The notes under the pieces: model-generated
Told to the model about the DNA's origin: nothing
Databases searched by the model: none
Seen by the model: the letters and a program-made list of their open reading frames with translations, nothing else
In this document: piece after piece, positions 9,184-21,183 of the stretch
Numbering within the stretch: position 1 is the first letter of the stretch
How the letters are laid out: every line of letters starts with the position of its first letter
Translations under genes and position numbers: made by a program
Virus record (IMG/VR): IMGVR_UViG_3300044729_001284
Coordinates: 1-37,563 of that record
From: a virus
Strand: one strand, 5' to 3'
Length of the DNA stretch: 37,563 nucleotides

Positions 9184-9636
9184 ATGCCGCGCCCAGAGAA
9201 CAAGACCATCGAAGATATGTACCTGTCCCGCGTGATTCGCCAGGATGGCGGCGAGTGTTGGGGATGGGCAGGATCAGTGCATGTGTTTGGGTATGGTGTT
9301 TTCGGAAAGTCCGGCTCTTCTGGCATGTATGCCCATCGCGTCTCTTATCAGATGCACGTCGGCGAGATACCGGCCGGCAAGGACGTGATGCACTTGTGCC
9401 ACAACCCGGCATGCAGCAACCCGGCACACCTGGCGCTCGGCGACCGCAAGGAGAACATGCGGACATCGTTTGAGGCCGGACGCTTGCAGCGGAAGATTCC
9501 ACTTGAGGCGCTATCTCAAATCAGGCAGCAGCGAGCGCGAGGCGTGACACTGAAAGCCATTGGCGAAATGTTCGGATGCACGAAACAGGCTATCCGTCAC
9601 ATGCTCAACAGTCATCCGGAGATCGGCAATGCCTAG
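9184..9636 (+). CDS. HNH homing-type endonuclease
   Basis: The product has 150 residues. ECWGWAGSVHVFGYGVF and MYAHRVSYQMHVGEIPAG lead into DVMHLCHNPACSNPAHLALG, the HNH_3 core with its His, Asn and zinc-type cysteines. The C-terminal part (residues about 105-145: LSQIRQQRARGVTLKAIGEM, then GCTKQAIRHMLN) is a helix-turn-helix for target binding. It separates the adaptor and nozzle genes, which normally adjoin, so it is most likely a free-standing homing endonuclease insertion. Its last eight bases overlap the next gene's start, so it has not damaged that gene. Confidence 0.9.
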   Translation: MPRPENKTIEDMYLSRVIRQDGGECWGWAGSVHVFGYGVFGKSGSSGMYAHRVSYQMHVGEIPAGKDVMHLCHNPACSNPAHLALGDRKENMRTSFEAGRLQRKIPLEALSQIRQQRARGVTLKAIGEMFGCTKQAIRHMLNSHPEIGNA

Positions 9637-11800
9637 GGTTTCATTAATTCAGACAAATTTTACGGCTGGCGAGCTGGCGCCGCGCCTGATGGGCCGCGTC
9701 GATATTGCCCGCTATCAGAACGGCGCCAAGACCATCGAGAACGCGCACCCGCTGACGCATGGCGGATGTATTCGCCGGCCCGGCACGCTGTTCGTGGCAG
9801 CAACCAAAGACAGCACTAAGCGCTCCCGGCTGATTCCCTACATCTTCAACCGCGACCAGGCCTACATGCTGGAGTTCGGCGATCAATACCTGCGCGTCTT
9901 CAAGGACAGCGGACAGGTCGAGTCCTCGCCCGGCGTGCCCTACGAGATCGCGACGCCCTACACCGAGGCCATGCTGCCCGATCTCGACTATGTGCAGGGC
10001 GCCGATACCATGTTCATCGCGCACCCGAGCGTGCCGATCTACCGCCTGCGCCGATTCGATCATGCCTCGTGGGACTTGTCGGCCGCGCCCTTCACGGTGA
10101 CGCCCTTCGACGAGATCGGCAACAACCCGGCGACCACGCTCACGCTGTCGTCTGCGGCGGTCGGCGCTGGCCGTACCTTCACCGCTGGCGCTGCCGCCTT
10201 CCAGGCCTCCGACGTGGGGCGCGAAATCTGGTCATCGGCCGGCGTCGCTACCATCACCGGCTACACCAGCACGACGGTCGTCACCGGCACGATCACGGTC
10301 GCCTTCCCGAGCACCAGCGCAGCATCCGGCGCCTGGACGATTGCCGGCAGCCCGCAGACCACATGCACGCCGTCGGCGAAAGACCCGATCGGCGCCTCGA
10401 TCACCCTGACCCTGGGCGCTGCCGGATGGAATGCGGCCGATGTCGGCAAGTTCGTCAAGATCAACGACGGCCTCGCCAAGATCACCGGCTACACGTCTGC
10501 GACCATCGTCAATGCCTCGATCGTGCAGGAACTTACCGCCATAGTCGCGGCGCCGGCAATGGCCTGGTCGCTGGAGTCCGCCGTCTGGAACGCGACCAAC
10601 GGCTACCCGCGCGCCGTCACCCTGCACGAGCAGCGCCTGATCGCTGCCGGATCGGACGGCTTCCCGCAAACCATCTGGGGCAGCAAGACCGGCGTCTATC
10701 TGGACTTCACCCAGGGCACGGCCGACGACGACGGCTTCAGCTTCAAGATCGCCTCGAATCAGGTCAATCCGATCACGCACCTGGGGCAGATCAAGCAAAT
10801 GCTGGTGCTGACTTACGGCGGCGAGTTCTCCGTCGAGGGCGGCGTCGAGAAGCCCGTCACCCCGACGAACGTGCAGGTCAAGAGCCAATCGGCCTATGGC
10901 TGCAACTCCGCACGCCCGGCGCGGATCGGCAACGAGCTGCTGTTCGTGCAGCGCTCCGGCCGCAAGGTGCGGGCGATGGCGTATCAATACACGAATGACG
11001 CCTTCGGCTCTCCCGACCTGACCGTTCTGGCGCAGCACATCACCGAGAGCGGCATCGTCGATATTGCCTACCAGCAGGAGCCCGACTCGCTGCTCTGGTG
11101 CGTGCGGGCCGATGGCGTGCTGGTCTCGCTGACCGTCGAGCGCGAGCAGGATGTCGTCGGATGGGCGCGGCACACGACTGACGGCACCTTCGAGGCGGTC
11201 GCCACGATCCCGGTCGCTGATGGCGAGCAGGTCTGGGCCATCGTCAAGCGCACCATCAACGGCGTGACGAAGCGCTACATCGAGATTCTGGACACGACGG
11301 TGAACACCGACTGCGCCGTGCTCGGCGATCACCCGACTGGCGCAAGCGTCTGGTCTGGCCTCGATCACCTGGAAGGAAAGACGGTGGACATCGTGGCCGA
11401 TGGCGCCGTGATGGAGCAGCAGGTCGTCACCGCCGGGCAGATCACCCTGCCGCGCAATGCGCTGGCCGTCGAGATCGGCCTGCACTACGAAAGCGTGATC
11501 GAGCTGCTGAACATCGAGATCAACAGCGGCACCGGCACCGCCCAGGGCAACGCCGTCCGTACTGGCGAGGCGACTGTGCGCCTGCTAAATTCCTCGGGCT
11601 GCGACATTCAGGGCCAGCCGATCCCGTTCCGGCGCTTCGGTGCTGGCGTACTCGATCAAGCCGTGCAGTCCTTCACCGGCGACAAGCGCATCGAGCTGCT
11701 TGGATGGGAGCGCAGCGGCGGCTCGATCACCATCCGCCAGACGCAGCCGCTGCCGATGCACATCGTCGCCGTGATTCGCAAGGTATCGGTCAATGATTAG
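9629..11800 (+). CDS. Tail nozzle / tail tubular protein B-like
   Basis: The product has 723 residues. The start ATG 9629 gives MPRVSLIQTNFTAGELAPRL, the usual opening of this family; the frame is open to 9560 but that part overlaps the HNH gene. The N-terminal segment NGAKTIENAHPLTHGGCIRR, then the RPGT motif, is characteristic. The centre carries Ig-like or beta repeats: two similar stretches, each with a 'GYTS' motif (about 205-240 and 285-320), occur before VTLHEQRLIAAGSDG. Proteins of this family form the hexameric nozzle below the adaptor ring. The C-terminus ends in beta strands PMHIVAVIRKVSVND. It is close to T7 gp12 in length. Confidence 0.85.
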   Translation: MPRVSLIQTNFTAGELAPRLMGRVDIARYQNGAKTIENAHPLTHGGCIRRPGTLFVAATKDSTKRSRLIPYIFNRDQAYMLEFGDQYLRVFKDSGQVESSPGVPYEIATPYTEAMLPDLDYVQGADTMFIAHPSVPIYRLRRFDHASWDLSAAPFTVTPFDEIGNNPATTLTLSSAAVGAGRTFTAGAAAFQASDVGREIWSSAGVATITGYTSTTVVTGTITVAFPSTSAASGAWTIAGSPQTTCTPSAKDPIGASITLTLGAAGWNAADVGKFVKINDGLAKITGYTSATIVNASIVQELTAIVAAPAMAWSLESAVWNATNGYPRAVTLHEQRLIAAGSDGFPQTIWGSKTGVYLDFTQGTADDDGFSFKIASNQVNPITHLGQIKQMLVLTYGGEFSVEGGVEKPVTPTNVQVKSQSAYGCNSARPARIGNELLFVQRSGRKVRAMAYQYTNDAFGSPDLTVLAQHITESGIVDIAYQQEPDSLLWCVRADGVLVSLTVEREQDVVGWARHTTDGTFEAVATIPVADGEQVWAIVKRTINGVTKRYIEILDTTVNTDCAVLGDHPTGASVWSGLDHLEGKTVDIVADGAVMEQQVVTAGQITLPRNALAVEIGLHYESVIELLNIEINSGTGTAQGNAVRTGEATVRLLNSSGCDIQGQPIPFRRFGAGVLDQAVQSFTGDKRIELLGWERSGGSITIRQTQPLPMHIVAVIRKVSVND

Positions 11801-12257
11801 ACCCGCCAACTACGAAGACATCCCTCGCCTGGTCGAGCTTGGCGAGGTCATGCACGGAGAATCCCGCTACCGCGTGCTTCCTTACGCCCCGAACAAGGTA
11901 TTCGGCCTGCTGGCGAACATGATCGAGAAGGACGACGGCCTGCTGATCGTCTCCGAGAAGAACGGCGAGATCGTCGGCGGCTTTGCCGGCCTGGTCGTCG
12001 AGCATTGGTTCTCGAACAGCCGGATCGCGACCGACTTCGCCCTGTTCATCCATCCCGATCACCGGGGCGGCATGACAGCCGCGCGCCTGCTGAAGGCCTT
12101 CGTCACCTGGGCACGCGAACGGGGGGCGGTGCTGATTACTGCCGGCATCACAACCGGCGTCACTACCGATTCATCGACACGGCTTTATCAGGCCATCGGC
12201 TTCGAGCCTGTCGGGATCGCTTTCAACATGGAGGGCAGCAATGTGCACAGGACTTGA
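11793..12257 (+). CDS. GNAT-like acetyltransferase fold protein in the injection gene block
   Basis: The product has 154 residues. MIRPANYEDIPRLVELGEVM is a typical GNAT first strand and helix. FALFIHPDHRGGMTAARLLK contains an acetyl-CoA loop like the family's 'V.P.yRg.G.a..Ll', and LYQAIGFEPVGIAFNMEG is the last beta strand with 'GFe'. The loop reads DHRGGM, close to the consensus, so cofactor binding is plausible. Its place between nozzle and internal virion proteins matches T7 gp13, an early virion-assembly protein. Either a structural role or real acetyltransferase activity is possible. It overlaps both neighbours. Confidence 0.75.
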   Translation: MIRPANYEDIPRLVELGEVMHGESRYRVLPYAPNKVFGLLANMIEKDDGLLIVSEKNGEIVGGFAGLVVEHWFSNSRIATDFALFIHPDHRGGMTAARLLKAFVTWARERGAVLITAGITTGVTTDSSTRLYQAIGFEPVGIAFNMEGSNVHRT

Positions 12258-12720
12258 AATGCTGATGGTCGCATCGTCCGCAGTCTCGGCGATCGGCGCG
12301 CTACAGCAAGGGCAGCAGCAAAAGGAATATGCCAACTATCAGGCGGCACAGACCGAAGCGGATGCGCGGGCCGAGCGCGACGCGGCCGAGGTTCATGCCG
12401 ACAAGATCAGGAAGGCGGCACGGCTGCAAGCCAGCGAGGCGCGGGCGGCGATGGCCGGCTCCGGCGTCGATGTCGGTGCAGGCACGGCGGTCGACATCAA
12501 CTCCAGCATCTACAAGAACGCCGAAGAGGATGCCTGGAGCGCGATCCTCGGCGGCAAGAACAAGGCCGCGTCGATGGATGCCCAGGCGCAAGGGATGCGA
12601 ATCTCCGGCGACAACGCCGAGACCGCCAGCTACTTCAGCGCAGCCGGCTCTGCGCTCAGTGGTGCGGTGCAGATTGGTAAGGGCTGGAAGGCTTCCGCAT
12701 CGGGAGCCAAGACATCATGA
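12241..12720 (+). CDS. Internal virion protein, T7 gp14-like
   Basis: The product has 159 residues. A hydrophobic N-terminal helix (MLMVASSAVSAIGALQQGQQ) is followed by a long Ala/Glu/Arg-rich coiled-coil-like helix (about 35-75), the segment MAGSGVDVGAGTAVDI and a C-terminal Ala/Ser region. The same layout is found in podovirus gp14-type proteins, which leave the capsid first and build the outer-membrane part of the DNA ejection channel. It overlaps the preceding gene by 17 bases and the next by four. Confidence 0.78.
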   Translation: MCTGLEMLMVASSAVSAIGALQQGQQQKEYANYQAAQTEADARAERDAAEVHADKIRKAARLQASEARAAMAGSGVDVGAGTAVDINSSIYKNAEEDAWSAILGGKNKAASMDAQAQGMRISGDNAETASYFSAAGSALSGAVQIGKGWKASASGAKTS

Positions 12721-14798
12721 GAATCCCTGTCGGTAATTTCGGATTCCAGACGGCCCCGACCTCGCGCACGCAGGTCGACATCGGCGGCGTCGATGCCATT
12801 GGGCGCGGCATGCAGCAGCTCGGCAATATCGGCATGCAGGCATCGGCCGACCTGATGGCCGAGAAGCGGCGCGAGGATGAAGCGCTGGCGCGAGCCAAGG
12901 CATCGAATGCGCTGCTCGACCACGAGATACAGGTCAAGACGCTGGCGACCGACATCGAGAGCAAGCTGACCGACCGCTCGCTGTCCTACAGTGACGCGCC
13001 GGCCGCGTTCAAGGCCGGCTATGCCACCATCGAAAAGCCGAAGGTCGAAGGCCTCGATCCGGCAACGCTGGAGACCTTCGACAAGGGCATGAAGCGCACC
13101 GAGTTCTCCGGCTTCTCCCATGTGCAGCAGTCCTCCGAGAAGGCCAAGCGCGCCGACTTCAAGGGGCAGGCCGACATCGCCCTCGACAAGCTCGGCAAGC
13201 TGGCCGGCATGCCTGGCGGTGACATCGAGAAGATCAACACGCAAGCCGACACGCTCGACCCCCTGGGGCGCGTCGCCTACGGTGCGAACTGGGACAAGGC
13301 GAAGCAGGACTTCAAGGATCGCAACTGGCTGAACCATGCGACGCAGCGAGCGATGGAGTCGAAAGACAGTCTTGAGGCCATCGGCCAGCTCGAACAAGAC
13401 CTGACGGCAGCCGACGGCTTCTATGCCGGCAAGCTCGACACCGACAAGCGCAACGCTGTCCTGCGCTCCGTGATCAACGACCGGCTGCGCATCGAGAACA
13501 AAATCCAGCACAACGCCGACCGGATGGAGGCCAAGGCCGAGAAGACCATCAACGAGATCGACCGGCAGATCGCCAGCGGGATACCGGCAAGCGCCGACAT
13601 GTGGGCAGCCTGGGGCAGCAAGATCAAGGGCACGGCATTCGAGGCCGACTTCAAGCAGCGCCTTACCGATGAGGCCGAAGTGCAGGACGTGCTGCGCCTG
13701 CCCATCGAGCAGCAGCGCGCCTTCGTGCAGAAGAAGGAAGCGGCCCTGCTCAACGGCGGCGGATCGGTGCGCGACAAGGCCAACACTGACCGCCTGAAGT
13801 CGGCCGTCGATGCGAACCTGAAGCAGCTCCAGGAGTCGCCCCTGCTGTTCGCCCAGAACCGCACCGGCCAGCCAGTGCAACCGCTCGACATTGCAGCGCT
13901 GGCGCAACCAGGAGGCGGCGACGCCGTGCGGGAGAACCTGCGCGATCGCGTCGCCAGCATCACGGCCCTGCAAAAGCAGTACGGCGCCCAGGTGCAGATG
14001 AAGCCATTCCTCCCGCAGGAGTCGCAATTCATCACCAGCGCACTGAACCAGGCGAACCCGAAGCAGCAGGTCGAGCTGTTCGGCACGCTGCGCATGGCCT
14101 TCGGCGACGACACGGCCTACATGGCAGCCATGCAGCAGATCGCCCCGGATTCCCCCGTCAAGGCGCTGGCCGGCATGCTGATGGCGAAGCAGCGCAAGAT
14201 CACCCTGGAGAAGAACTGGATCGCCGACGACGTGACATCCAACAGCGGCGACGTGGCGACGACGGTGCTCGAAGGCGAGAACCTGATCAACAAGACCAAG
14301 GGCCAGAAGTCGGAAGACGGCAAGCCCCTGCGCAGCCTCTACATTCCACCGATCAAGGACTTCGAGAACGAGTTCGCCAAGTACGTCGGCGATGCCTTCG
14401 CCAGCCGGCCGGGCGCTCTCGATGTCGCCGTGCAGTCGGCCTATGCCTACTACGTCGGCAAGTCGTCCAAGACCGGGCGCCTCAACACCGACGCCAAGGA
14501 CATCGACGGCAAGCTGCTTAACGAGGCGCTGACGGCTACGCTCGGCGCTCCGGTAGCCTACGGCAGCGGCGGCACCGTGTTCGCGCCCTGGGGTATGGAT
14601 AAGGGCACCTTCAAGGACAAGGTGCGCGAATCCTTCAATGCCGAGGTCAAGGCGCGCGGCATGCCAGACAGCACGAAAGACCAGCTCCCGGCGCTCGGCC
14701 TGCGCAACCTCGGCGACGGCAGCTACTACGTCACCCAGGGCAGAAACTTCCTCTATGACGGCAAGGGCCAGCCGGTAACGATCAAGGTGCAGCCATGA
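12717..14798 (+). CDS. Internal virion protein, T7 gp15-like
   Basis: The product has 693 residues, largely helical and highly charged. It begins MRIPVGNFGFQTAP and contains a helical region EKRREDEALARAKASNALLD plus long heptad-like stretches. The C-terminal part ends with DGSYYVTQGRNFLYDGKG, a small beta unit seen at the end of similar ejected proteins. No enzyme motif was found. In T7 the equivalent forms the periplasmic ejection tube together with gp16. ATGA overlaps link it to the genes on both sides, so the ejected proteins are made in fixed order from one message. Confidence 0.75.
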   Translation: MRIPVGNFGFQTAPTSRTQVDIGGVDAIGRGMQQLGNIGMQASADLMAEKRREDEALARAKASNALLDHEIQVKTLATDIESKLTDRSLSYSDAPAAFKAGYATIEKPKVEGLDPATLETFDKGMKRTEFSGFSHVQQSSEKAKRADFKGQADIALDKLGKLAGMPGGDIEKINTQADTLDPLGRVAYGANWDKAKQDFKDRNWLNHATQRAMESKDSLEAIGQLEQDLTAADGFYAGKLDTDKRNAVLRSVINDRLRIENKIQHNADRMEAKAEKTINEIDRQIASGIPASADMWAAWGSKIKGTAFEADFKQRLTDEAEVQDVLRLPIEQQRAFVQKKEAALLNGGGSVRDKANTDRLKSAVDANLKQLQESPLLFAQNRTGQPVQPLDIAALAQPGGGDAVRENLRDRVASITALQKQYGAQVQMKPFLPQESQFITSALNQANPKQQVELFGTLRMAFGDDTAYMAAMQQIAPDSPVKALAGMLMAKQRKITLEKNWIADDVTSNSGDVATTVLEGENLINKTKGQKSEDGKPLRSLYIPPIKDFENEFAKYVGDAFASRPGALDVAVQSAYAYYVGKSSKTGRLNTDAKDIDGKLLNEALTATLGAPVAYGSGGTVFAPWGMDKGTFKDKVRESFNAEVKARGMPDSTKDQLPALGLRNLGDGSYYVTQGRNFLYDGKGQPVTIKVQP

Positions 14799-17700
14799 GC
14801 GTGTTCGACCTCGACCAGAAGGGGCAGCAGACGCTTGCCGACGAGGCCCGGCTGAATCCGCTCGATGCGTCCCAGGTGCAGCCGTCGGCCTTCACTGGCG
14901 TCGGGACTGGCATCGGCATGGGCCTGATGAAGGGCGGCGCTCGCGTCGGGCAATTTGTCGGTATGGCCGGCGCGACTGTCCCGATGGCGATCGACAAGCT
15001 GGTCGGCGACGACAATCTCAGCGGCAAGTCGCTGACCGATGGCTACTTCGAGGGACTGGATGCGAGCGTCAATCGTGCGGCCGACTACTGGACACCCGGC
15101 CATGCGGAAGTCGGCAAGGCGGGCCAGATACTCGGCGGCTTGTCCGAGATCGTCCTGCCGATGCTGGCAGGCGGCGGCAACCCGGCAGCGACTGCGACGA
15201 TGGTCGCCGGATCGCAGACGGCCGGCACCGGCACCGACCTGGTGAAGCAAGGCGTCGATGGCAACACGGCCGGCACCGTCGCAGCGATTCAGGGCGTCGC
15301 GGCCTATGCCGGCTTCAAGATTCCATTCCTCGGCAACTCGCTGGCCTCGCGCATGGGCAGCGGAGTCGCGGGCAACCTGGTGACGAATGCCGGCGGCGCA
15401 GCCGTGCAAAGCAAGGTGCTCGAAGGTGACGGGTACAAGGATCAGGCGAAGCAGTTCGATCCGCTCAACCTCGAAGCCCGCGCAATCGACGTGCTGACCG
15501 GCCTGGTCTTCGGCGGCTTCGCGCACTGGTCAGCCGGGCGCACCGGGCAGCCGATCAAGCCGTCGGACGCCGATGCCGTGCTGACCGCCAGCAACGCCAA
15601 GCACTTCCAGCACGACACGGCACCCGGCACGCCGGCCAATGCAGGAGCCAGCGCAGCGCATCAGTCAGCGCTGGAGACCGCCATCGAGCAGATGATGCGC
15701 GGCGAGCGCGTGAATGTCTCCGACTCGATCACGGCTGCCGAATTCGTCAGGAAGCCCGAGTCGCCGATCGCGTCGGCCATCCGCGAGGCCTACGGCATAG
15801 AGGCCCCGACGGCCCCCGTCAGCGGCGTGCGCGGCATCCGCAACAACAACCCGGGAAACATCGAGATCGGCGGGCAAGTGTGGCAAGGGCAGGTCGCCGG
15901 CAACGATGCGCGCTTCGCGACCTTCGAGACGCCCGAGGCCGGCATTCGCGCCCTGGCGAAGAACCTGATCACCTACCAGGACAAGCACGGCCTGAACACG
16001 GTCGAGGGCATCATCAACCGATGGGCGCCAGCGAAGGAGAACCAGACCAGCGCTTATGTGGCTGCCGTCGCCAAGGAGCTCGGCGTCGCGCCTGGCGATG
16101 GGCTCAATGTCCGTGATCCGGCGACGCTCTCCAAGCTGACGACGGCCATCATCCGGCACGAGAACGGCGGGCAGCCTTACGATGCCGCGACCATTGACAC
16201 CGGCGTCAAGGCGGCGATCTCTGGCGTGCTGCCGCGCAAGCCGGATGCAATGCTGGCCGAAATGCCCAGGGCGAAGGCGCTCCCCGAGCTGGATCGCAAG
16301 ATCGAATCCAGTCTGGCCGGCAAGATCGCCAGCGACTACCCGGGCTCCGTCGCCGAATACAACGCGCTGCCGGACGCAATGGGCGGCAAGGTGCTCAACG
16401 TCGACACGGCCCGCGAGCTGTCGCCCGACTACGCAACCAGCAAGGAATCCCGCGCGCTGCTCTCAGCGGCCGTGCATGAGCCGGCGAGCTACTTCATCAA
16501 GCAGGTCTATGCCGACCGTCTCGCCGAAATGCCGCCGAATAGCACGGTGATGTTCACGTCAGGCGGCACTGGCGCCGGCAAGTCGACGGCCATTACCAAC
16601 GTGCCTTCTGCTGCTCAGGCGATGGATGCCGCACACATCGTCTACGACACGAACATGAACGGCTTAGAGTCGGCGCAGAAGAAGATCGAGCAGGCGCTTG
16701 CCGCTGGCGCGAAGGTCGACATCTGGCACGTTCAGCGCGATCCGGTCGATGCCCTGGTGAATGGGGCTCTGCCGCGAGCCGCACGCTATGGCCGAGCCGT
16801 TCCGCTGGATGCCCACGAAGCGACACATGTCGGATCAGCACAGACCGTCGTGCAGCTCGCCGAGCTCTATCAAAACGACCCCCGCGTCAGCATTCGCATC
16901 CTCGACAACACCCGAGGCAAAGGCAACGCTGGAGAGGCGAATATTGAGTTCATTAAGACATTCGACTACAATGGGCTCAGAGAGAGGTTAGTTTCAGCTC
17001 TCGACAAGGAGTATCAGAATGAACGCATCAACGATGCAATCTACCGTGGCACCCTCGGTGCAACTGATGCCGGACGGCAGGACAGTAGCGCAAGCCTGGC
17101 AGGACAGCGACCGCAAGGAATGGCGGATGGGCTACCCCTACGCCAGCGAAGCCGAGATTCAAATGCTGATGGACGCGGAGAGCAAGAACGGCTACCCGCC
17201 CAAGAACCTCCAGCACGCCAAGGAAATTCTCGGCAAGGCTTAAACGCCAAAGCGTTCCCCGTCCGAGGGAACGAATCGACCGCCGTCACCGAGCGCGGCG
17301 GCACCATCACAACGCAGTTCGTCGTCGTCGAGGCAGATCGCCTCGTCACGTCGCACGACAACTCCCTCAAGCCGAATGCCGACTTCCCGCGCGAGCTGCA
17401 ACCGCGCGACCGGGCGCGTGCCGCCTCCGAGGCGCAGATCACCAAGATCGAGAACGGCATCAATCCCGAGCTGCTGGCAGAATCGCCGAAGGCTTCCGAC
17501 GGCGCTCCGATCATCGGCACCGATAAGGTCGTCGAGTCAGGCAACGCCCGCACCATTGCCCTGCGTCGCGCTTACGAGTCCGGCAAGGCAGACGCCTATC
17601 GGCAGTGGCTGATCGACAACGCCGAGCGCTTCGGCATCGATGCGGCCAAGGTGGCGAAGCTCAAGCGCCCGGTGCTGGCGCGTGTCGGCCTGGGGGAATA

Positions 17701-18649
17701 CGACCGCGCCGAGTTCGCGCGTCAGGCCAACGAGTCGGCCGTCGCTCAGATGTCCGTCACCGAGACCGCGAAGGCTGACGCGGCACGCATGCCCGACCTG
17801 ATGGGCCTGATCACCAACGAAGACGGCACCATCAACCCGACGCAATCGCAGCCGTTCATTCGCTCGTTCATTGCCAACGTGGTCAGCTCGTCGGAGCACG
17901 GCGCGATGATGGCGGCGGATGGCGCGCTGTCGCAGCAGGGCCTTCAGCGCATTCGCAATGCCGTCTTCGCCAAGGCGTACGGCGATCCCGAGATCGTCGC
18001 CATGATGGCCGAGAGCACCGACGCCAACGTCAAGAACATCCTGGCCGGAATGCTGCGCGCGGCCCCTGGCGTCGCCCGTCTTAAAGACCTGATCGAGGCC
18101 GGCGCCCGGCATCCGATAGACATCACTGGCGACCTGGTGCAAGCCGTCCGGCAGTTCTCGAAGATCAGGGCCGAAGGCATGACGGTCGATCAGTTCCTGG
18201 CGCAGCAGTCGCTCTTCGATGCCGGCGTCACGCCCGAGGTCAATAACCTGATGATCGGCCTCCAGGAGAATGCCCGGGCACCGAAGCGCGTCGCCGAAAT
18301 GATCGGCCGCGTGGTCGATTCCGTCGATCAGCTTGGCGACCCGAGGCAGGCCGGCATGTTCGACAGCATGCCGCAGCCGAAGCCGCAAGACCTGATCGCC
18401 GATGCCATCGAGACATTGCGCGCCCAGGGCGAAGCCAAGCAGAGCGGCGATCTGTTCAAGTCGCCCGAGTTCGATGCGGCCAGGCAGGTCGCCGAGCAAT
18501 CGCCCGACATGCGGGTCGTGCTCGAAGACGGCAGCGAAGTCTCGGTGCGCGAGGCAATGGATCGAGCCCGCGCCGATCTCGAACAATCCGACGTGGACGT
18601 GAAGGCATTCGATGCCGCCGTCACCTGCTACTTGAGGAACCTCACATGA
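14795..18649 (+). CDS. Large ejected polyvalent protein: transglycosylase-like, zeta-kinase-like and DdrB/ParB-like segments
   Basis: The product has 1284 residues. Residues about 30-250 are Gly/Ala-rich and hydrophobic, suiting membrane insertion. Residues about 346-480 begin RGIRNNNPGNIEIGG and contain FETPEAGIRALAKNLITYQD, a phage structural lysozyme or transglycosylase-like unit that would open peptidoglycan during entry. Residues about 520-740 hold a P-loop kinase unit with Walker A GGTGAGKS (590-597), HVQRDPVDALVNGALPRA and a C-terminal helix, resembling zeta-toxin-type domains. Residues about 826-960 (NESTAVTERGGTI, FVVVEADRLVTSHDNS, RNART-like VESGNARTIALRRAYESG) match the DdrB-like ParB-superfamily unit of polyvalent proteins. 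The rest is helical. In residues 742-817 third-position bias is lost and another frame is coding. It is probably the gp16 equivalent; the effector roles are inferred. Confidence 0.82.
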   Translation: MSVFDLDQKGQQTLADEARLNPLDASQVQPSAFTGVGTGIGMGLMKGGARVGQFVGMAGATVPMAIDKLVGDDNLSGKSLTDGYFEGLDASVNRAADYWTPGHAEVGKAGQILGGLSEIVLPMLAGGGNPAATATMVAGSQTAGTGTDLVKQGVDGNTAGTVAAIQGVAAYAGFKIPFLGNSLASRMGSGVAGNLVTNAGGAAVQSKVLEGDGYKDQAKQFDPLNLEARAIDVLTGLVFGGFAHWSAGRTGQPIKPSDADAVLTASNAKHFQHDTAPGTPANAGASAAHQSALETAIEQMMRGERVNVSDSITAAEFVRKPESPIASAIREAYGIEAPTAPVSGVRGIRNNNPGNIEIGGQVWQGQVAGNDARFATFETPEAGIRALAKNLITYQDKHGLNTVEGIINRWAPAKENQTSAYVAAVAKELGVAPGDGLNVRDPATLSKLTTAIIRHENGGQPYDAATIDTGVKAAISGVLPRKPDAMLAEMPRAKALPELDRKIESSLAGKIASDYPGSVAEYNALPDAMGGKVLNVDTARELSPDYATSKESRALLSAAVHEPASYFIKQVYADRLAEMPPNSTVMFTSGGTGAGKSTAITNVPSAAQAMDAAHIVYDTNMNGLESAQKKIEQALAAGAKVDIWHVQRDPVDALVNGALPRAARYGRAVPLDAHEATHVGSAQTVVQLAELYQNDPRVSIRILDNTRGKGNAGEANIEFIKTFDYNGLRERLVSALDKEYQNERINDAIYRGTLGATDAGRQDSSASLAGQRPQGMADGLPLRQRSRDSNADGRGEQERLPAQEPPARQGNSRQGLNAKAFPVRGNESTAVTERGGTITTQFVVVEADRLVTSHDNSLKPNADFPRELQPRDRARAASEAQITKIENGINPELLAESPKASDGAPIIGTDKVVESGNARTIALRRAYESGKADAYRQWLIDNAERFGIDAAKVAKLKRPVLARVGLGEYDRAEFARQANESAVAQMSVTETAKADAARMPDLMGLITNEDGTINPTQSQPFIRSFIANVVSSSEHGAMMAADGALSQQGLQRIRNAVFAKAYGDPEIVAMMAESTDANVKNILAGMLRAAPGVARLKDLIEAGARHPIDITGDLVQAVRQFSKIRAEGMTVDQFLAQQSLFDAGVTPEVNNLMIGLQENARAPKRVAEMIGRVVDSVDQLGDPRQAGMFDSMPQPKPQDLIADAIETLRAQGEAKQSGDLFKSPEFDAARQVAEQSPDMRVVLEDGSEVSVREAMDRARADLEQSDVDVKAFDAAVTCYLRNLT
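17019..17243 (+). CDS. Nested small gene inside the polyvalent-protein gene, unknown function
   Basis: The frame encodes 74 residues, shifted relative to the polyvalent gene that contains it. ATG 17019 has AGGAG eight bases upstream. The product has balanced composition (for example KEWRMGYPYASEAEIQMLMD and PPKNLQHAKEILGKA). By hand count about three quarters of its third codon positions are G or C, whereas the host frame here is rich in A- and T-ending codons and yields a Gly/Arg/Gln-rich, linker-like translation. This suggests the small frame is the real coding frame and the long protein reads through it. It lies directly after the zeta-kinase-like segment, so a companion or antitoxin-like role is conceivable but unproven. 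Confidence 0.6.
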   Translation: MNASTMQSTVAPSVQLMPDGRTVAQAWQDSDRKEWRMGYPYASEAEIQMLMDAESKNGYPPKNLQHAKEILGKA

Positions 18650-21183
18650 AGCCCCAGTGCATAGACGCAGTGAATAGCGCGGTCGGCCGCGAGCTGAACG
18701 AAGCCGAGCTGAAGGGAGTCGAGGAACGCATCACCCGGCACTTGCGCCAGAACGCAGCGCGCGATCCGCAGGCAACGCTCGCCATGACACCCGAGCAGCG
18801 CTTCGTCGAGGCAGCGAAAACAGCCTCTGAAGAGTTCCAGGCCGAGCAGGCGAAGAAGGCGCAGCGCGTCGCCCTGCAAGTGATGGCGAACGCCAAGATC
18901 GAGCAGCACCTGTCCCAGTTCGGCGGCGACAAGCTCGACGGGCTGGCGCGCGTGGTTGCCTTCCATGCCGACGGGAAAGGAAACTTTCTGTCCGTCGAGA
19001 GCCAGGCCAAGGCCATCGAGCGCGACTCGCTGCGCCAGATGATCGGCACGATGGAGGCCACCAATCCGAAGTTCTTCGGCCTGTTCGAGAACAAGGACGG
19101 CGTGCGCGCCCTGGTGAAGGAGCTCTTCGGCGAGGACTCCGGCGTCAAGGAGGCCAAGGACGGCGCTGCCCAGTTCAAGGCCGTGGCCGAGGCCCTGCGC
19201 CAGCGCTTCAACCGTGGCGGCGGGGAAGTCGGCCAGCTCGAAGACTGGGGCATGCCGCACCATCATTCGCAGCTCAATGTCGCCAAGGCGGGGCGCGAGC
19301 AGTGGATTGCCGACATCCTGCCGAGGCTCGACCGCAGCCGCTACACCGGGCCGGACGGCGCCCGCATGACGGATCAGGAGCTGGATGTCTTCCTGACGCA
19401 TGCCTGGGAGACGATCGCTACCGGCGGCGTGAACAAGATCGAGCCGGGCCGACCAAACGGCAGCGGCATGCGCGCGAACCGTGGCAACGAAGGCCGGCAG
19501 ATTCACTTCAAGGATGCCGACAGCTATCTCGGCTATCAGGAAAAGTACGGCGATCACACGCCTTACGAAGTGATGGTCGGCCATATCTCCGGTGTCTCCA
19601 AGGACATCGCCCTGGTCGAGACCCTGGGCCCGAATCCCGACCATGCCTTCCGGATGTTCCGCGACATCGGCATGAAGGAAGCGACGCTCGCCGATCCGGC
19701 CAAGGCCGGCAAGGTGCAGAAGCAGATCGTCGGCCTCGAAAACCTCTACAACCTGACCGCCGGCAAGACGCTGCCGGTCGCCTCCGAGCACCTGGCGAAA
19801 TCCTTCGACACCCTGCGCTCGTGGCTGGTGGCCTCGCGCCTCGGCTCGGCGGTGATCTCGTCGCTGTCGGACGAGGCGACGCTGTACCTGACCGCGCACG
19901 TCAATAACCTGCCCGAGCTGCGCGTCTTCGCGAACGAGCTGTCGGCCATGAACCCGGCGAACCAGATGGAAAAGCGCATGGCGCTGCGTGCCGGCCTCGC
20001 CATGAATACGATGATCTCGTCGCTGAACCGCTTCGGCCAGGACGGGCTAGGCGCTTCGTTCTCGTCGAAGCTGGCCTCGTCGGTGCTGCGCGCCTCTGGC
20101 CTGAATGCCCTGACGGAAGCCCGCAAGCGTGCCTTCGGCGTGACGATGATGTCGAGCCTCGGCCAGATCACGAAGGACTTCGACAACCTCGGCAAGCTGG
20201 ACAAGGCCGATCATCGCATCCTGCTCTCGAAGGGCATCACCGAGACCGAGTTCGCCGTCTGGCGCAAGGCAGCGCTCGAAGACTGGGGCGGCGGCAATAG
20301 CACGATGCTGACGCCGGAGTCGATCTACCGCATCCCTGACGAGGCGCTGAAGGGGCTGGCCGACGATCTGTTCCCGAATATGCCGGTCGATGCCCGCACC
20401 CTGAAGGAACGCGCTGCGACCAAGCTGCTCGGCGTGGTGCTCGAAGAGACCGACGTAGCCGTGATCGAGCCCGGCGTCAAAGAGCGTGCGCTGATGCTGT
20501 CGAATCTCCAGCGCGGCACCTGGAAGGGGGAATTATCCCGTTCGTTCTTCCTGTTCAAGTCCTTCCCCATTGCCATGCTGACGCGACACTGGATGCGCGG
20601 CATGAACATGGAGACCTCGGGCGGCAAAGCAGCCTATATCGCCTCGCTGATGGCCGGCACGACGATGCTCGGCGCGGCGGCGCTACAGATCAACGAAGTG
20701 CTGTCCGGTCGCGATCCGCGCAACATGAACCCGGCCGAGAAGGGCGGCGTGCGCAACTGGATTCAGGCCATGATGAAGGGCGGATCGCTCGGCATCTATG
20801 GCGACTTCCTGTTCTCCGAATCGACGCAGCACGGCCAGAGCCCGGTCGCATCTGTCATGGGGCCGGTCATCGGCATGGGCGAGGACTTGTTCAATCTGAC
20901 GCAAGGCAACCTGGTGCAGCTCGCCCAGGGCAAGAAAACGCATGCCGGCGCCGAGCTGGTGAAGTTCGCCAAGAGCAACATGCCCGGCGCAAACCTTTGG
21001 TACACGAAGGCCGCGCTCGATCACATGGTCTTCCATCAGCTTCAGGAGTATTTTTCGCCGGGCTATCTGGCGACGATGCGCTCGCGGGCTTATCGCGAAT
21101 TCGGACAGCAGTATTGGTGGGAACCCGGCCAGGTGGCGCCAGATCGCGCGCCGAACCCGGTCGCAGCCGTAGGGGGGCGATGA
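18646..21183 (+). CDS. Very large internal/ejected virion protein
   Basis: The product has 845 residues, mainly helical. The N-terminal third is charged (TPEQRFVEAAKTASEEFQAE), and the middle contains DWGMPHHHSQLNVAKAGREQ, a histidine-rich loop seen in large ejected phage proteins. Region about 385-420 (SWLVASRLGSAVISSLSDEA) and region about 665-690 (AAYIASLMAGTTMLGAAALQ) are hydrophobic enough to contact membranes. It ends in RAPNPVAAVGGR. It continues the ejection operon by an ATGA overlap and precedes the small terminase-like gene. I recognise no enzyme motif. Related proteins are annotated as internal virion protein D or polyvalent-associated, and the exact family is uncertain. Confidence 0.68.
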   Translation: MKPQCIDAVNSAVGRELNEAELKGVEERITRHLRQNAARDPQATLAMTPEQRFVEAAKTASEEFQAEQAKKAQRVALQVMANAKIEQHLSQFGGDKLDGLARVVAFHADGKGNFLSVESQAKAIERDSLRQMIGTMEATNPKFFGLFENKDGVRALVKELFGEDSGVKEAKDGAAQFKAVAEALRQRFNRGGGEVGQLEDWGMPHHHSQLNVAKAGREQWIADILPRLDRSRYTGPDGARMTDQELDVFLTHAWETIATGGVNKIEPGRPNGSGMRANRGNEGRQIHFKDADSYLGYQEKYGDHTPYEVMVGHISGVSKDIALVETLGPNPDHAFRMFRDIGMKEATLADPAKAGKVQKQIVGLENLYNLTAGKTLPVASEHLAKSFDTLRSWLVASRLGSAVISSLSDEATLYLTAHVNNLPELRVFANELSAMNPANQMEKRMALRAGLAMNTMISSLNRFGQDGLGASFSSKLASSVLRASGLNALTEARKRAFGVTMMSSLGQITKDFDNLGKLDKADHRILLSKGITETEFAVWRKAALEDWGGGNSTMLTPESIYRIPDEALKGLADDLFPNMPVDARTLKERAATKLLGVVLEETDVAVIEPGVKERALMLSNLQRGTWKGELSRSFFLFKSFPIAMLTRHWMRGMNMETSGGKAAYIASLMAGTTMLGAAALQINEVLSGRDPRNMNPAEKGGVRNWIQAMMKGGSLGIYGDFLFSESTQHGQSPVASVMGPVIGMGEDLFNLTQGNLVQLAQGKKTHAGAELVKFAKSNMPGANLWYTKAALDHMVFHQLQEYFSPGYLATMRSRAYREFGQQYWWEPGQVAPDRAPNPVAAVGGR

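Follow-up and report, generated by a model that had tools for sequence, protein, structure and literature searches.

A protein encoded in the ejection operon of a temperate phage carries a kinase domain assigned by its modelled fold to the topologically rewired zeta class. The antidote of that kinase is probably encoded by another, small gene (17019..17243), which lies nested at the 3' end of the kinase coding region and is read in the +1 frame. The window, that is, the whole stretch of DNA analysed, comprises the 37,563 nucleotides of IMG/VR record IMGVR_UViG_3300044729_001284, and all features described below lie on its plus strand. Taken as a whole, the reading of an ejected UDP-sugar kinase whose antitoxin gene is entangled in the kinase gene is considered here to be rather probable. 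Because of the nested gene, the kinase unit resembles a toxin-antitoxin cassette and not the lone counter-defence enzyme implied by a previous, sequence-only reading, in which the kinase was recognized and its partner gene passed unseen. For the kinase-bearing protein, nothing was found that bears specifically on host defence.

The open reading frame (14795..18649) encodes 1284 amino acids, and its limits are exactly those given in the sequence-only reading. Residues 1-330 (14795..15784) form a constant region similar to gp16 of epsilon15 (phrog_1145, 3.1e-44 over residues 1-341), which is kept in relatives carrying different domains downstream. This region had been described as hydrophobic; it is rich in Gly and Ala, but since the Kyte-Doolittle mean over 19 residues nowhere exceeds 1.28 it contains no clear membrane segment, and a membrane N-terminus was rejected. 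A MuF toxin was also rejected, as the protein has no MuF match in Pfam and its N-terminus is that of phrog_1145. There follow a lysozyme/muramidase-like domain at residues 336-475 (15800..16219), which matches the PHROG 'endolysin' family phrog_873 (6.7e-63) and, in the PDB, Gp29 (9vvp, 4e-31) and an endolysin (7q47, 2.3e-23); the kinase at residues ~490-757 (16262..17065); a DdrB-like ParB domain at residues 835-964 (17297..17686; Pfam PF18763, 2.7e-36); and a C-terminal tail at residues 1216-1284 (18440..18646), shared by several relatives whose middle domains differ. The protein thus joins unrelated effector domains (lysozyme, zeta kinase and DdrB-ParB) in a single phage polypeptide, as is characteristic of polyvalent proteins. 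The earlier proposal of a polyvalent ejection protein with these three domains is supported, while the rewired class of the zeta domain and the nested gene had been overlooked.

The genomic context is that of an epsilon15-type ejection operon. According to the PHROG assignments, the genes for a nozzle protein (phrog_376) and a GNAT protein are followed by those for a gp14-like internal virion protein (12241..12720; phrog_418), a gp15-like ejection protein (12717..14798; phrog_992), the 1284-aa protein with its phrog_1145 N-terminus and a virion structural protein (18646..21183; phrog_684), whose homologue in phage Piluca is annotated as pilot protein. This succession agrees with the gp14-gp15-gp16 order noticed previously, and both the gene order and the N-terminal family are those of an epsilon15-type gp16.

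The kinase matches Pfam Zeta_toxin (6.3e-5) and the Neisseria toxin ng_zeta1 (PDB 6eph; phmmer, 8e-8; profile of the family, 1.6e-18), in accordance with the zeta context earlier ascribed to its P-loop, GGTGAGKS. The AF2 model (pLDDT 85; Foldseek 2.8e-14) aligns by VIA-align with ng_zeta1 over 258 residues at Z 25.6, against Z 11.6 for canonical zeta, a result contrary to the outcome that, according to the earlier reading, would have refuted it (lack of a structural match between residues 520-740 and zeta). In the profile alignment to 6eph, the block with the predicted catalytic Asp537 (16403..16405; Asp56 of ng_zeta1) precedes the P-loop at residues 590-597 (16562..16585). The canonical epsilon/zeta class (zeta of S. 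pyogenes, PezT), in which the Asp block comes after the P-loop, was rejected on this reversed order. Conservation of the active site was counted over 32 non-redundant relatives of the kinase: Asp537 and the P-loop Lys596 (Lys115 of ng_zeta1) are present in 32/32, and Arg661 and Arg667 (16775..16795; Arg175 and Arg181) in 31/32 and 32/32, respectively. The domain is under purifying selection (omega 0.15-0.20). In genome samples drawn around a Stenotrophomonas genome and scanned at a threshold of 1e-10, it was present in 0 of 398 from the phylum and in one of 299 from the order, although absence in such scans carries little weight; a search of genome contigs with the kinase alone gave no match.

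The best reading of the domain, by analogy with ng_zeta1, would be that of a UDP-sugar kinase. ng_zeta1 phosphorylates the 4'-OH of UDP-sugars, is lytic and is neutralized by a small antitoxin (PMC5923241). It could be argued instead that the kinase acts on nucleotides or cofactors (e.g., NAD or polynucleotide ends) against host defence and not as a cell-wall toxin, since its structural neighbours also include AvrRxo1, an effector of the zeta fold (Z 12.4), and bacterial polynucleotide kinases (Z 9.3), and since Asn75 of ng_zeta1 is replaced, by Ser in 24/32 and by Ala in 7/32 relatives. Asn75 and Lys59 contact UDP-N-acetylmuramic acid (UNAM) in ng_zeta1 and favour it; in the window they are changed to Ser and to Arg (Arg in 29/32 relatives), which may tell against UNAM as substrate. 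This alternative appears unlikely, however, as ng_zeta1, a UDP-sugar kinase, is by far the nearest neighbour, the equivalents of Asp56, Lys115, Arg175 and Arg181 are retained and the Lys59 position stays basic.

The nested gene encodes a candidate antitoxin or immunity protein of 74 aa, and its ATG lies 7 nt downstream of a Shine-Dalgarno sequence, AAGGAG (17006..17011). Before the nested start there is also a weak sigma-70-like match (9/12; 16944-16972). Similar small genes accompany the kinase widely. Among 108 unique kinase loci, 107 have an ORF in the +1 frame that spans the end of the kinase, compared with 0/108 for the +2 frame, and all 48 internal kinases nest it completely. The start codon is ATG in 101/107 of these ORFs, against 16.7% at control anchors (50/54 among cluster representatives, P=2e-24), and a Shine-Dalgarno match of at least 4 nt precedes 68% of the starts, the frequency at other +1 ATGs being 13% (P=2.7e-12). 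The small-ORF profile was built from the non-overlapping tails, i.e., the parts beyond the kinase stop codon; short ORFs added to the kinase alignment became misaligned. In fused loci these ORFs were the top 9 of 5,547 fragments against this tail profile, and in 53 held-out loci every match at E<=1 was one of them. For the nested and overlapping ORFs no PDB match, to ng_epsilon1 or to other solved antitoxins, was obtained at E<=10, a search of low power with such short sequences.

A real small gene could also encode a chaperone or a packaging adaptor, needed for loading the kinase-bearing protein into the head or for holding it unfolded until ejection, as in many phages it comes after the kinase of a large virion-type protein. 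We hold this to be distinctly unlikely. The gene also stands beside stand-alone kinases of 320-360 aa, beside a plasmid-borne kinase of Pandoraea (L008) and with a polyvalent protein encoded in the genome of a bacterium (L099). Furthermore, in the sister phage L004 the match to the window ends at 16224 and resumes at the nested stop codon, at 17241, with 94.8% identity before this block and 77.5% after it. The exchanged block (16224..17241) contains both the kinase and the nested ORF, which were replaced together, while the upstream delivery domains stayed in place. In two other relatives (L013 and L015) a different effector occupies the same slot of the epsilon15-type protein.

The antidote reading also has to be weighed against that of a relic, in which fusion of the kinase to downstream domains would have read through an old overlapping antitoxin gene whose expression was then lost. 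Where the kinase stands alone, its stop codon is overlapped by the small gene over 17-119 nt, so that fusion to further domains would enclose the small gene as a linker. When the fused loci are shuffled by synonymous codons, moreover, ORF length alone is not unusual for the fixed amino acids (Fisher P=0.10), and openness by itself is not decisive. This outcome is attributed to the main-frame linker sequence having itself been moulded by the overlap, and reliance is therefore placed on homology, Shine-Dalgarno, codon-position and control-anchor tests. Among the window and the relatives L002 and L003, omega of the nested frame is 0.31-0.49, whereas over these bases the main frame is relaxed in the pairs that include the window (omega 1.24-1.26), with a codon-position shift in both (P=2.5e-4 and 3e-3). 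Between L002 and L003 there is no such relaxation of the main frame (omega 0.44), and the codon-position test does not reach significance (P=0.07). This selection, together with the good Shine-Dalgarno sites and the frame being open in every internal kinase, makes a relic very improbable. The nested protein of the window is predicted with low confidence as three helices (pLDDT 66); it has no relative in Pfam, the PDB or a phage tblastn search, and its match in PHROG is weak (phrog_5306, E 0.005). It falls outside the W..ELV.NLN profile, to which many of the other nested ORFs conform, and its link to them therefore rests on position, frame, size, Shine-Dalgarno sequence and constraint.

We infer the following course of ejection, substrate use, toxicity, antitoxin activity and timing. 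At infection, the epsilon15 gp16-type protein would leave the head along with the DNA, and its lysozyme domain would aid in opening the peptidoglycan. The rewired zeta kinase would reach the cytoplasm and phosphorylate UDP-sugar precursors of the wall at the 4'-OH, by analogy with ng_zeta1, stalling wall synthesis in the new host, while the DdrB-ParB domain may act on DNA or host factors. In the producing cell, ribosomes would start on the nested gene at its own Shine-Dalgarno site in the late mRNA that it shares with the kinase, and its product would silence the kinase. As this product is not part of the ejected polypeptide, the kinase should arrive unguarded, although the antitoxin could instead remain bound and be packaged too. 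That the injected kinase is a hostage device, harming any cell in which the incoming DNA is destroyed and with it the sole source of the antitoxin, would fit an antidote encoded in phage DNA only and the sigma-70-like match, but is hardly to be expected of a gene in a late operon with so weak a promoter match.

Nesting the antidote in the +1 frame would make toxin and immunity inseparable, so that both travel together among ejection proteins and the antidote is left behind at ejection, the enzyme being silent in its maker and active in the next host; our assessment leans slightly towards this being a general route. If true, it would represent a general and apparently undescribed way of encoding self-immunity for virion-delivered effectors. 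How a phage survives while making many copies of such a kinase is not addressed in the portions of the literature consulted, and a nested partner would answer this directly. The signature of the overlap (low synonymous rate, open +1 frame and Shine-Dalgarno sequence inside the toxin domain) may help to find the self-immunity genes of further phage effectors, genes that routine annotation will probably overlook.

Several known systems share parts of this arrangement. Polyvalent proteins of phages and conjugative elements also combine lysozyme, DdrB-ParB and zeta-like kinase domains, for instance DdrB with lysozyme in an Acinetobacter prophage and kinases of the zeta type in MuF phages as well as in conjugative elements (Iyer et al., 2017, PMC5512222, in the sections available). 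Such zeta-type kinases are already known, and have been conjectured to weaken the cell wall at entry; those sections make no mention of a nested partner, of the rewired class or of a kinase in an epsilon15-type ejection protein. DdrB of phage P1 is 34% identical over residues 819-1223, in the DdrB-ParB region, but lacks a kinase match; it is a multidomain protein of another kind, with a metallopeptidase at its C-terminus (PMC5512222). The gp16-type proteins of epsilon15 and the Alcaligenes phage Piluca share the N-terminal region and the gene order; that of epsilon15, however, matches only up to residue 475 and is split over two genes, and that of Piluca has DdrB and no kinase. ng_zeta1/ng_epsilon1 of N. 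gonorrhoeae (PMC5923241; PDB 6EPG/6EPH/6EPI) shares the order of Asp before P-loop, the fold, the four active-site equivalents and a small partner gene, whereas the window kinase is embedded in the ejection protein of a phage, where a linker and DdrB come after it instead of an OB domain, and its partner is nested and has no detectable similarity to solved antitoxins. In Apk2, finally, a head-associated MuF protein of a temperate phage also bears a toxic domain, a pyrophosphokinase, whose active site is occluded by the immunity protein IapK (PMC12226406); there, the N-terminus and the enzyme are different, and the immunity genes are separate and downstream, while in the window the candidate antidote is written into the kinase gene itself.

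The candidate polyvalent effector is a 1284-aa ORF at 14795-18649 (+), as a sequence-only reading had proposed, and its placement in an ejection operon agrees with the epsilon15-type gene order found here: nozzle, GNAT acetyltransferase, gp14-like phrog_418, gp15-like phrog_992, the 1284-aa protein, and phrog_684. Downstream lie terminase, tail fibre, endolysin, and integrase genes, so the phage is probably temperate. The GNAT gene (11793-12257 (+), phrog_1249, Pfam 7.5e-10) lies between the nozzle and gp14-like genes, and an acetyltransferase is annotated at the same position in TPWB-05 and Piluca. Two HNH endonuclease genes (1309-1797, and 9184-9636 between tail genes) are possible homing elements. 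Within the effector, the same reading had correctly recognized a lysozyme-like segment (phrog_873, 6.7e-63 at residues 336-475; PDB endolysin 7q47, 2.3e-23), a P-loop kinase in a zeta context (Zeta_toxin similarity, Pfam 6.3e-5), and a DdrB-like ParB domain (2.7e-36); the hydrophobicity it assigned to the N-terminus is present but weak. The lysozyme domain (15800-16219) sits in the gp16-like protein here, whereas the epsilon15-type matches divide across two adjoining genes; this domain has likely moved between ejection proteins.

The kinase belongs to a particular fold class. With a profile of nine relatives, the Neisseria gonorrhoeae kinase ng_zeta1 was the sole significant PDB match (1.6e-18), and the AlphaFold2 model (pLDDT 85) bears out the zeta assignment structurally (Foldseek 2.8e-14 to ng_zeta1; VIA Z of 25.6 over 258 residues, versus 11.6 to streptococcal zeta). 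In ng_zeta1, two blocks of sequence have exchanged positions, a "topological rewiring"; the enzyme phosphorylates the 4'-OH of UDP-sugars, with UDP-N-acetylmuramic acid preferred, and causes lysis in E. coli, and ng_epsilon1 neutralises it (PMC5923241). The window kinase has the same rewired block order. Across 32 non-redundant relatives, the residues matching Asp56, Lys115, and Arg181 (ng_zeta1 numbering) do not vary and Arg175 is kept in 31; Lys59 is replaced by Arg in 29 (Lys in 3), and Asn75 by Ser or Ala (Asn once). Kinase omega is 0.15-0.20. From these data we take the enzyme to be active, possibly with a sugar specificity other than that of ng_zeta1.

A nested gene was exposed by an anomaly in the domain-wise rates: in window pairs, the linker at residues 757-815 has a synonymous rate of about 0.2, versus 0.5-0.9 elsewhere, and a high non-synonymous rate. 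Here a +1-frame ATG ORF of 74 aa (17019-17243) follows AAGGAG at 7-nt spacing. Among the window and the related loci L002 and L003, its own-frame omega is 0.31-0.49; main-frame omega on the same bases is 1.24-1.26 for the window versus either locus and 0.44 for L002 versus L003 (codon-position shift, P=2.5e-4 and 3e-3 for the window versus L002 and L003, 0.07 for L002 versus L003).

Kinase loci were collected by an IMG/VR kinase-profile scan (62 loci) and a broader scan (218 confirmed, 80 kept). In 107 of 108 unique loci, the kinase end is straddled by a +1 ORF 40 or more codons long, the single exception being a contig end; such an ORF occurs in the +2 frame in 0/108. This ORF overlaps the stop codon of C-terminal kinases (59/59) and is wholly nested at internal ones (48/48). 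ATG-only starts occur in 101/107 loci, compared with 16.7% for control anchors within those genes; with one representative per 65% cluster, and nine loci of L004 type (the sister phage) or window type counted as single cases, the figure is 50/54 (P=2e-24 against a looser control rate of 26.8%). A Shine-Dalgarno match of at least 4 nt precedes 68% of nested starts versus 13% of other +1 ATGs (OR 13.8, P=2.7e-12). In synonymous shuffles, the length of the ORF does not by itself stand out. Stand-alone kinases and the partner gene overlapping them are followed by a second small conserved gene, cysteine-rich with TCLTCEFFRNAQVMG.CRRYP (L044:3160-3411, homologues in L047-L058).

Homology of the small proteins was assessed with a tail profile built solely from the parts encoded past the kinase stop codon, because overlap cannot force similarity there. 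Of the 5,547 six-frame fragments from 27 fused loci, the nine that it scored best were without exception nested ORFs located at the end of the kinase. In 53 held-out loci, all matches at E<=1 (40 of 7,018 fragments) were +1 ORFs at the kinase end, eight of them fully nested and none elsewhere. The common motif is about W..ELV(D/N)NLN, and by eye a +1 ORF ending with DGWVQGMVRTMNGLSKN was also seen in L099, which is a polyvalent protein from a bacterial genome. The small proteins showed no similarity to ng_epsilon1 or to any chain of solved structure. The nested protein of the window forms a sequence type of its own, in which the motif profile finds no match, and it is therefore assigned by position and rate evidence.

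In the sister phage L004, the DNA matches the window at about 95% identity as far as 16224; beyond that point L004 carries another rewired zeta kinase (31% identity), so that the upstream junction is sharp. Alignable similarity returns at 17241 (77.5%), 185 nt short of the end of the contig; this downstream end may be a recombination point, or the DdrB part may have been exchanged as well. Kinase and nested gene were replaced within one block, as would be required of a cognate pair.

The relatives have the N-terminal region in common, and often the tail at the C-terminus too, around a variable stretch. This holds lysozyme-zeta-DdrB in the window, L002, and L003; zeta with the C-tail and without DdrB in L009, L010, L011, L014, L016, and L038; DdrB then zeta in L037; zeta then DdrB in L041 and L083; DdrB without a kinase in Alcaligenes phage Piluca (L007) and, together with an SLT domain, in Acinetobacter phage TPWB-05 (L005); and an ADP-ribosyltransferase in L031. 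The latter (L031:5875-12105) is a 2077-aa ORF related by its N-terminal region, with an ART-PolyVal domain (2.9e-33). In the kinase-less relatives L013 (7600-8199) and L015, the slot domain contains ALKHIHDSRPD and has no Pfam match.

The analysis establishes the sequence, the fold class, the conservation, the constraint on the overlap, and the linkage of kinase and nested gene; from these we infer ejection, kinase activity, neutralisation, and their timing as follows. In producing cells, the late-made ejection protein would poison the cell's own wall synthesis unless a small antitoxin, translated off the same mRNA, kept it in check; a new cell would receive the ejected protein without the antitoxin. 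A limited search of the open-access literature turned up no earlier description of an ejected effector with an antitoxin nested in it. Polyvalent proteins as such, and zeta domains within them, are already known (PMC5512222), and MuF toxins are phage-head toxins with immunity genes downstream (PMC12226406).
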